A DNA stretch of 64,000 nt, taken from positions 186,001 through 250,000 of the forward strand of contig SUZR01000001.1 in NCBI GenBank assembly GCA_015059845.1. The letters run 5' to 3'. Made by a program: the position numbers and the translations under genes. Positions 57,498 to 63,668 of this stretch are shown piece after piece (the first letter of the stretch is position 1; each line of letters begins with the position of its first letter). Below the pieces are notes generated by a model, which saw nothing but the letters and a program-made list of their open reading frames with translations, did no database searches and was not told where the DNA came from. Origin of the DNA: Rikenellaceae bacterium (GTDB taxonomy: Bacteria > Bacteroidota > Bacteroidia > Bacteroidales > Rikenellaceae).

Positions 57498-59267
57498 ATG
57501 AAAGGATTACTCAAACTAACTCCAATTATGGCATCGGTCATCGTGCTGCTCTGTGCCACCACGCCGCGCGAGAATGTCAAGCCGATGTACACCACCGATA
57601 TCTCCATTACCACAGATGGGAAGATGGTAATCACCAACAAGGGCACAAACGACGTCATCCTGCTCTCAATGGATGGCACGCAGGAGCAGAGATGGGAATT
57701 CAGCGAGGCTCCGACAGGTGTTGCCGTATCGGGACAGATGGCCTATGTTACAAGCAGTCAGGACGAAGGATACATCTCGGGCATAAATCTCGCCGACGGA
57801 AGCATAAAGTTCAAGGCCCAAACAGCTATGGGTGCGTGTGCGCCGATTATGAGCGTGGATGGCTCGAAGGTGTATGTTTTGAATCGCTATAAGGCTACGG
57901 TGAGCGAGGTTGACGCCGCCTCAGGCGAGGTGTTGCGCGATGTGGCTGTTTTGCGTGAGCCCTGCGCCGCGACAATTACTCCCGATGGAAAATATCTCTA
58001 CGTAAATAACTTCCTGCCTGCACAGCGTTCCGATGTGGATTATGTCGCTGCGGATGTATCTATCATCGACTGTGATACATTCCAGAAAGTCAAGGATGTA
58101 AAGCTAAGTAACGGAAGTAATGCTTTAAGAGGCATAGCCTGCTCGGCAGATGGAAAATATGTCTTTGTATCGCATAACTTAGGTCGCTTCCAGGTACCTA
58201 CATCGCAGCTTCAGCAAGGATGGATGAACACCAACGCAGTCAGCGTGATAGATACCTCTACGCAGACGCTCATCGGCTCGATGTCTATCGACGAGCCCGA
58301 CCGCGGTGCTGGTGGCGTGTGGGATATCGCGTGCGACAAGGATTTTTTGGTTGTATCGCAGTCTGGAACACACGAGGTGAGCATTATCGAGTACGCCCCG
58401 ATGATTGAGAAACTGAAGGCCTACCCCGACCACTCGAAGATGGATTACGACCTCTATTTTATGCGCGGAATACGCACCCGCCTGCCAATCAATGGCAACG
58501 GCCCTCGTAATATGACGCTGAAGGATGGTAAGCTATATATCCCTGCCTATTTCTCTGACACTCTGAACATTGTAAACGTAGCCGAGCAGACTATTGACTA
58601 CATCGCATACAATCCCCACAGAGTAGAATCACCTGCCGACATTGGCGAGCGAGCCTTTAATGATGCGGCTCTCTGCTTCCAGAACTGGCAATCGTGCAAT
58701 GGCTGCCACCCCGGTGATGGCCGCACGGATGGTATGAACTGGGATTTGATGAACGACGGCATAGGCAACCCAAAGAACTGCAAGAGTATGCTCTTCAGCT
58801 TCGAGACTCCGATGTGTATGATTTCGGGTATTCGCGCCCACGCAGGCCTGGCGGTAAGAGCTGGATATAAGTTTATCCAATTCTGTGATATTCCAGAGGA
58901 TATAGCCGTTAATGTGGACGAATACATTAAGTCGTTAAAGCCCCTCAAGAGCCCCTATCTGGTAAATGGCGAACTCTCGGAGAAGGCTCTGCAAGGACGT
59001 AAGGTGTATGAGAAATATGGCTGCGCCGATTGCCACTCTGGCCCCTACTATACCGATATGAAGATGCACCGCATAGGCGAGGATGTGGAGTTTGACGAGG
59101 GATGGGATACCCCTACCCTGCGCGAGGTTTGGCGCACGGCACCCTATCTGTTTGACGGGCGTGCAGCTACAATGGAGGAGGTCTTTATGGTGCATAAGCA
59201 CGGCATTGACGGCAAGATATCACGCAAGGATGCAGAGGCATTGGCCGAGTATGTTAATTCGTTATAA
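57498..59267 (+). CDS. YVTN/YncE-like beta-propeller fused to di-haem cytochrome (CCP/MauG-like) domain
   Basis: N-terminal signal, propeller blades (GKMVITNKGTNDVILLSMDG, DGSKVYVLNRYKATVSEVD, DGKYLYVNNF), then CNGCHPGDG and CADCHSGP CxxCH haem sites. Confidence 0.85.
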   Translation: MKGLLKLTPIMASVIVLLCATTPRENVKPMYTTDISITTDGKMVITNKGTNDVILLSMDGTQEQRWEFSEAPTGVAVSGQMAYVTSSQDEGYISGINLADGSIKFKAQTAMGACAPIMSVDGSKVYVLNRYKATVSEVDAASGEVLRDVAVLREPCAATITPDGKYLYVNNFLPAQRSDVDYVAADVSIIDCDTFQKVKDVKLSNGSNALRGIACSADGKYVFVSHNLGRFQVPTSQLQQGWMNTNAVSVIDTSTQTLIGSMSIDEPDRGAGGVWDIACDKDFLVVSQSGTHEVSIIEYAPMIEKLKAYPDHSKMDYDLYFMRGIRTRLPINGNGPRNMTLKDGKLYIPAYFSDTLNIVNVAEQTIDYIAYNPHRVESPADIGERAFNDAALCFQNWQSCNGCHPGDGRTDGMNWDLMNDGIGNPKNCKSMLFSFETPMCMISGIRAHAGLAVRAGYKFIQFCDIPEDIAVNVDEYIKSLKPLKSPYLVNGELSEKALQGRKVYEKYGCADCHSGPYYTDMKMHRIGEDVEFDEGWDTPTLREVWRTAPYLFDGRAATMEEVFMVHKHGIDGKISRKDAEALAEYVNSL

Positions 59268-59272
59268 GAGTA

Positions 59273-63300: not shown

Positions 63301-63668
63301 TGCGCAAGATGGCTGTATCAGGCGTTGACCCGCAGCCCGTGGCTGAGAGCAACTGGGTATATAAATATTATACTTATATGCCCCGTGAGGATAGCGTGAA
63401 CGATGGTACGATGACTATTGCCGATGTTGCGAAGTATGCACCCAACGCTTGGGGATTGTACGATATGCACGGTAATGTAGCCGAGTTTACCCGCACTACA
63501 TACGCACCCTACCCCTACAAGGGCGAGCCCGCCGTAGGTGACGACAAGGTTATTCGTGGTGGCGCGTGGGATAGTCATCCCAAGAACGGTACCGCTTACT
63601 TCCGTAAGTCATATCTGGCTTGGCAGCCTGCAAACAACGTAGGTTTCCGAGTAGTGATTGAGGAGTAA
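60390..63668 (+). CDS. HzsA-like CxxCH protein with C-terminal formylglycine-generating-enzyme (SUMF1/EgtB/PvdO) domain
   Basis: Signal peptide; propeller-like HzsA-related middle; CVGCHEDQN and CVACHNENG haem sites; C-terminal [19 protein letters not shown]...[36 protein letters not shown]...GNVAEFTRT...VIRGGAWDS. Confidence 0.85.
   Translation: [1092 protein letters not shown]

Follow-up and report, generated by a model that had tools for sequence, protein, structure and literature searches.

A cluster of three genes in a 64,000-nucleotide stretch of DNA from a Rikenellaceae bacterium (contig SUZR01000001.1 of assembly GCA_015059845.1, positions 186,001 to 250,000; hereafter the window) comprises two genes that almost certainly, judging by sequence and modelled structure, encode a complex built like hydrazine synthase (HZS), with a gene for a chorismatase relative between them. 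The set occurs widely among Bacteroides-type bacteria of the gut. Our best reading, which we regard as about evenly poised, is that a periplasmic tetrahaem HZS-built complex acts on a carbohydrate-derived compound and is co-expressed with a cytosolic type-II-like chorismatase. Within this reading, comparison of sequences and co-inheritance clearly indicate the HZS-like architecture, the four predicted c-type haem sites, the kept chorismatase residues and the linkage to cytochrome c maturation. The best name for the system is a hydrazine-synthase-like tetrahaem complex with a dedicated chorismatase; past this architecture we infer the mechanism, including the substrate, the direction of electron flow and the role of the aromatic that the chorismatase would make. 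The three genes are as follows.

57498-59267, + strand: gene 1, HZSBC-like, 589 amino acids; an N-terminal membrane/export segment, then a 7-bladed beta-propeller (HZS beta) fused to a di-haem domain (HZS gamma)
59273-60370, + strand: gene 2, chorismatase-like, 365 amino acids
60390-63668, + strand: gene 3, HZSA-like with an FGE-like C-terminus, 1092 amino acids; a signal peptide, an HZSA-like region and a C-terminal FGE-like domain

Genes 1 and 3 together account for all three HZS chains, since HZS chains were their best or only solved relatives. Gene 1 matched the NCBI model for fused HZS beta-gamma (NF052342, 1e-26) as well as NF052340 (3e-21) and NF052341 (1e-16), and a profile search of the PDB returned HZS beta as best match (5c2v_B, 2e-23) along with 5c2v_C (1e-15), the HZS gamma chain that was also the best PDB match of its C-terminal domain. 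The AlphaFold2 model of gene 1 (predicted template-modelling score, pTM, 0.81, with low confidence in the di-haem part) had 5c2v_B as its top Foldseek match, at a TM score of 0.84 on the target. Gene 3, initially annotated as an HzsA-like protein with an FGE-like domain, matched exactly those two Pfam families (PF18582, 1.3e-38; PF03781, 2.1e-39); HZS alpha (5c2v_A) was the sole PDB profile match of residues 140-790 (2e-22) and the top Foldseek match of its model (2e-24 across 803 columns). The curated HZS cut-offs were missed, by gene 1 far so (NF052342, 93 of 1250 bits), and likewise that of NF052339 (41.5 of 800 bits). Gene 1 had initially been described as a propeller with two CxxCH motifs; both motifs are there, but the protein is not a separate type, being HZS beta+gamma-like over its whole length, and the supposed "propeller/di-haem" and "HzsA-like" proteins are therefore predicted subunits of one complex type. 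The haem sites lie at the following positions.

58695-58709, + strand: haem gamma-I motif CNGCH, residues 400-404 of gene 1, aligned with HZS gamma C102-H106; invariant in 58/58 unique homologues
59022-59036, + strand: haem gamma-II motif CADCH, residues 509-513 of gene 1; invariant in 58/58 unique homologues
61836-62111, + strand: HZS alpha middle domain (PF18582) of gene 3, ending in the haem alpha-I motif
62094-62108, + strand: haem alpha-I motif CVGCH, residues 569-573 of gene 3, aligned with HZS alpha C583-H587; invariant across 54 unique homologues
62244-62258, + strand: haem alpha-II motif CVACH, residues 619-623 of gene 3, aligned with HZS alpha C685-H689; invariant in 54/54

All four HZS-type CxxCH sites (gamma-I, gamma-II, alpha-I and alpha-II) were thus aligned in the trio and invariant, and the distal ligand that makes haem gamma-II bis-histidine also recurs, H568 aligning with HZS gamma His332 and being kept in 57/57 homologues. 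Two further residues of gene 3 are invariant, C239 (54/54) and H706 (52/52, with the same 83-residue spacing in the window protein); they may correspond to the zinc ligand alpha Cys303 and to alpha His772, the distal ligand of haem alpha-II, at positions beyond the reach of the alignment to 5c2v_A. The residues reported to be functional in HZS (PMC12607021, PMC12758564) compare as follows. In the gamma active site, the His144 position is I442 in the window protein and Ile in 56/58 homologues, the gamma Asp168 position is P466 (Pro or variable in homologues), and alpha Tyr591, proximal at haem alpha-I, is not kept, with N577 following CVGCH in the window protein and Tyr in 1/54 homologues; the gamma Cys165 position is C463 here, yet Cys in only 17/58. 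Because gamma His144, gamma Asp168 and alpha Tyr591 are not kept, hydrazine formation is unlikely, and on these predictions we are nearly certain that the complex is not hydrazine-forming; we class it as a complex with two-site haem chemistry of the HZS type rather than as a hydrazine synthase.

Compared with anammox HzsABC (PDB 5C2V, with an HzsBC fusion as in Ca. Scalindua), the gut proteins share an alpha chain and a fused beta-gamma chain, four CxxCH motifs, a bis-histidine gamma-II site and a beta-gamma gene upstream of the alpha gene. They differ in the three lost residues, in having only 21% and 15% identity across the Foldseek alignments, in the FGE-like domain on alpha, in the chorismatase gene lying in between and in a sugar-linked context. 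The FGE-like domain itself appears to be non-catalytic.

62880-63656, + strand: FGE-like domain (PF03781) of gene 3, without the catalytic Cys pair, having S1062 and G1067 instead

Its nearest PDB relatives were PorK/GldK, followed by true FGEs, and alignment with 6muj placed Ser and Gly at both copper-binding Cys positions; no homologue has Cys at the first catalytic position, and 2 have it at the second. Catalysis of the FGE kind is therefore unlikely, and the domain differs from PorK/GldK and other FGE-fold proteins both in lacking the catalytic Cys pair and in being fused to a cytochrome. Several HZSA homologues carry an additional N-terminal domain that is NPCBM-like by eye. A second FGE-like domain occurs in the window genome (contig C12, ~114.6-116.1 kb; locus L147:14589-16118, - strand), where it is fused to a NapC/NirT tetrahaem cytochrome, and for this reason the FGE-like domain may be a docking module for periplasmic cytochromes. 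The operon of that fusion also encodes two proteins with Tat-like starts, a GFO/IDH/MocA oxidoreductase and an AP_endonuc_2 TIM-barrel protein, and includes a ResB-like gene and CcsA; the fused cytochrome may be the membrane partner for sugar oxidation in the periplasm.

These data bear on two explanations that take the cytochromes in other directions. A true hydrazine synthase, or another enzyme that forms N-N bonds, encoded by a gut bacterium would fit the shared subunit architecture, the four-haem layout, the bis-histidine gamma-II site and the window protein's Cys at the gamma Cys165 position; the losses at His144, Asp168 and Tyr591, the scarcity of that Cys among homologues and the sugar-linked context make it extremely improbable. 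Scarcely better placed is a MauG-like and FGE-like pathway of protein modification, toward which the FGE fold and a di-haem domain of the MauG/CCP superfamily (PF03150, 26.8 bits against a cut-off of 25.6) would point. Here the closest relatives are again HZS, the FGE catalytic Cys are missing from the window protein and from nearly all of its homologues, no small target protein was seen in the trio, and the conserved Trp of MauG/CCP-type proteins (its role as described in PMC12758564) is absent at the gamma His144 position. MauG-like modification as the main theme does not survive the finding that subunits of HZS are the closest relatives of solved structure. The initial annotation's broader idea of a periplasmic redox or modification pathway holds as to redox chemistry, a co-inherited trio and a chorismatase-family partner, and fails as to FGE-type modification, both Cys positions being non-Cys.

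Gene 2 had been likened to the FkbO/Hyg5 chorismatases, and this was upheld by matches to both families (PF21168, 1.8e-13; TIGR04444, 1e-35) and by an alignment profile that retrieved Hyg5 (5ag3/5a3k, 6e-40) and FkbO (4bps, 3e-32) from the PDB. Numbering and roles of the Hyg5 residues follow PMC7170507, in which E334 is the catalytic acid and G173, G240 and C327 form the type-II signature.

60317-60340, + strand: catalytic stretch of gene 2, from C349 (= Hyg5 C327) to E356 (= Hyg5 E334, catalytic acid)

E356 was invariant in all 80 unique homologues covering that position, and G194 (= G173), G265 (= G240) and C349 were each invariant in 82/82. No export signal was seen in gene 2, and its product is presumed to be cytosolic. 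It is most likely an active chorismatase-type enzyme, and with a chorismate synthase gene present in the window genome we consider its use of chorismate moderately probable. The gene 2 protein belongs to the fold family of the type-II chorismatases (Hyg5, Nat-hyg5; EC 4.1.3.45) and has their catalytic Glu and Gly/Gly/Cys signature residues; it differs from them in its low model score, a divergent N-terminal part, several family-specific pocket residues and a location outside any natural-product cluster. As for the catalytic residues that the initial annotation had asked about, those of the chorismatase and all haem motifs are kept, and the FGE Cys pair is lost.

The association of the three genes was strong both across family genomes and across loci, consistent with the conserved co-occurrence that had been proposed. 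Among 150 family genomes, gene 2 was found in 47 and HZSBC in 30, with both in 28 (hypergeometric p ~1e-15, uncorrected for relatedness). In a scan of 85,462 species genomes, relatives of gene 2 were encoded at 403 places; the best 80 of these 403, which were retrieved, belonged to Bacteroidota, including Bacteroides and Parabacteroides strains. Of 83 distinct loci (Rikenellaceae, Bacteroides, Parabacteroides), 52 had HZSBC as the gene directly upstream of gene 2, at a median gap of ~15 bp, and mirror-tree distance correlations among the three proteins were r 0.89, 0.70 and 0.82. A cytochrome c maturation system likewise accompanies the complex: the window genome (2.09 Mb in 15 contigs) carries CcsB/CcsA, as a maturation check suggested at the outset now confirms, and CcsB was present in 28/30 HZSBC genomes, both exceptions being 65% complete. 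Judged by gene 2, the closest named relatives are Alistipes/Rikenellaceae genomes, mostly of ruminant-gut sources.

At the locus itself, the initially reported tight spacing was confirmed, the co-directional genes being separated by gaps of 5 bp (genes 1/2) and 19 bp (genes 2/3), as were the flanking expression signals.

57382-57389, + strand: promoter-like element TATCTTTG, TAnnTTTG (-7 type), Bacteroidota-type, by consensus match only
63687-63718, + strand: intrinsic terminator, a 14-pair stem followed by a T-run, seen as a strong hairpin in the sequence

This layout is not due to chance, because identical gene order recurs in many genera. A divergent spermidine/putrescine-type ABC transporter and an outer-membrane-barrel-like protein adjoin the trio on the - strand (window 52.9-57.1 kb), the PotA-like part of the transporter scoring above its cut-offs and the remaining parts below. 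As many loci of the genus, though not all, have the PotABCD-like transporter next to the trio, the transporter was dropped as a candidate partner.

Elsewhere, the typical operon is larger and runs from IclR, HZSBC, chorismatase, a cupin-like lipoprotein (called a cupin by eye, with no Pfam family matched), a 106-amino-acid protein, DhaK and DhaL to an LsrF-type thiolase, a Mala_s_1 propeller and HZSA-FGE. DhaK, DhaL and the LsrF-type thiolase (474 bits against an NCBI cut-off of 297) share the HZS-like operon in many genera. These links to sugar genes indicate carbohydrate metabolism, and a carbohydrate-linked role of the complex seems likely. In Parabacteroides the operon includes CcsBA, and in B. 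cellulosilyticus and relatives it includes a DAHP-synthase-like gene, which supports a demand for chorismate. In the window genome the same DhaK-DhaL-LsrF set is on another contig, C7 (L171:5232-8585, - strand), in an operon of DhaK, DhaL, LsrF-type thiolase and rhamnulose-1-phosphate aldolase genes near a SusC/SusD-like pair. Six loci (L051, L056, L078, L079, L120 and L155) have an HZS-like pair of a second type, whose HZSA is shorter and has no FGE-like domain; it sometimes adjoins the first type, and at L120 and L155 it also occurs with FGGY kinase and DeoC-type aldolase genes.

Homologues of gene 2 are also found apart from HZS-like genes, where they adjoin CcsBA alone, clusters of a DHOR di-haem protein with CcsBA, or PSD1/DUF1501 genes, and they also occur near FeoB. 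In other Bacteroidota families (L175:5287-8769 and L176:10529-14012, both - strand) the neighbour is a PD40 propeller protein with one CxxCH, joined at L175 by a DUF6057 membrane protein. Three loci (L148, L149 and L157) have clusters of porin-like genes, a single-CxxCH lipoprotein and a gene 2 homologue; the L148 cluster includes a di-haem DHOR and the L149 cluster a two-CxxCH protein, with CcsBA in both. At L063, L064 and L066, gene 2 homologues stand directly upstream of PSD1/PSCyt2-type and DUF1501 genes, and the PSD1 proteins of these loci have no CxxCH. Planctomycete-type cytochromes (PSCyt/PSD; PMC5615132) resemble the present proteins in being periplasmic and tied to carbohydrate genes; they are separate protein families, linked here solely via shared chorismatase neighbours.

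We propose the following mechanism. CcsB/CcsA would attach the haems. The bis-histidine haem gamma-II would exchange electrons with the membrane chain, perhaps via a NapC/NirT-type cytochrome. Haems gamma-I and alpha-I would be the two sites of a redox conversion whose substrate is a small compound derived from carbohydrate, rather than nitric oxide and ammonium, and the FGE-like domain would be a module for binding or docking without catalysis. The chorismatase would convert chorismate to 3-hydroxybenzoate (or a close product) and pyruvate, and its aromatic product could then serve the complex as co-substrate or redox partner. That the gene 2 product serves the complex directly we regard as plausible, if slightly doubtful. 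A wider form, in which a chorismatase-derived aromatic is co-substrate or redox cofactor for several kinds of periplasmic c-type cytochrome, mainly the HZS-like complex, in gut-bacterial carbohydrate metabolism, is rather unlikely.

Several observations weigh against the proposal of a chorismatase working with an HZS-like complex on sugars. The TIGR04444 score of gene 2 (123.6 bits) is far under the curated cut-off of 325, and its family-invariant positions deviate from Hyg5/FkbO, with Q170 in place of Hyg5 R148 and with K247, E249 and E272 family-specific; for both reasons its substrate may differ from chorismate. The operon-borne DAHP-synthase-like protein scores under its equivalog cut-offs, in the window genus the sugar genes lie outside the trio operon, and the alpha-subunit model is of moderate confidence only (pTM 0.59). 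Two same-genus genomes (G112 and G140) have HZSBC and HZSA-FGE, and no chorismatase was found in them, so the chorismatase is not always needed and strict dependence of the HZS-like pair on it is ruled out. Some gene 2 genomes lack CcsB, and in some Alistipes the chorismatase gene adjoins PSD1/DUF1501 genes that show no CxxCH; given the PSD1-linked copies in CcsB-less genomes, it is ruled out that the chorismatase depends strictly on c-type cytochromes.

Alternatively, gene 2 may not be a chorismatase at all, the same acid-base site instead opening an enol ether or related intermediate that the complex makes from sugar, with DhaK/DhaL/LsrF finishing to dihydroxyacetone phosphate and acetyl-CoA. 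The low TIGR04444 score, the family-specific invariant pocket and the operons with cupin-like lipoprotein, DhaK, DhaL and LsrF would all suit such a route, which we nevertheless judge unlikely given that the catalytic Glu and all type-II signature residues are kept, that some operons include a DAHP-synthase-like gene and that gene 2 also adjoins CcsBA away from any sugar gene. The neighbours outside HZS-like operons (CcsBA alone, DHOR with CcsBA, single-CxxCH PD40 proteins and nearby FeoB) would instead suit a general role, not specific to the HZS-like complex, of a chorismate-derived product of gene 2 in maturation, redox mediation or iron binding for periplasmic c-type cytochromes or iron/haem supply. 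This is more improbable still, because gene 2 is most tightly linked to, and co-inherited with, HZSBC, because genomes without CcsB hold some of the PSD1-linked copies, and because the two HZS-like genomes mentioned above do without gene 2.

The initial annotation was right in treating the trio as unusual. Its view that the trio has no obvious described equivalent was too strong, as HZS alpha/beta-gamma homologues outside anammox bacteria were described in 2025 (Hagglund et al., PMC12758564), with HZS-like pairs in Planctomycetota, Desulfobacterota and some others forming clades I-IV and beta-gamma matches also in Bacteroidota. Those clades resemble the gut operons in that their alpha and fused beta-gamma homologues are co-localised, occur in anaerobes and have lost key HZS residues. 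In clades I-III, unlike here, the alpha gene comes first, mostly with an FG-GAP gene, clades II-III are without haem alpha-II, and Trp rather than Ile occupies the gamma His144 position; clade IV comes closest in that it has no FG-GAP gene. A text search found no mention of chorismatase or FGE in the main text of that paper. In the open-access literature no paper was found on chorismatase and Bacteroides, although an earlier description elsewhere is possible, and nothing relevant by title or abstract was found for HZS with gut and Bacteroides or for 3-hydroxybenzoate with Bacteroides and cytochrome. The chorismatase partnership and the gut operons thus appear to be undescribed.

Gut species that are in culture (Bacteroides cellulosilyticus, B. 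faecis, Parabacteroides goldsteinii and P. gordonii) carry the four-haem HZS relative with identifiable metabolic genes nearby, which makes the role of HZS-like complexes directly testable. To our knowledge, hydrazine synthase was long considered exclusive to anammox bacteria, and we know of no function assigned to its relatives. If the proposed partnership is true, it would connect the shikimate pathway in a new way to electron transfer in the periplasm of gut Bacteroidales.

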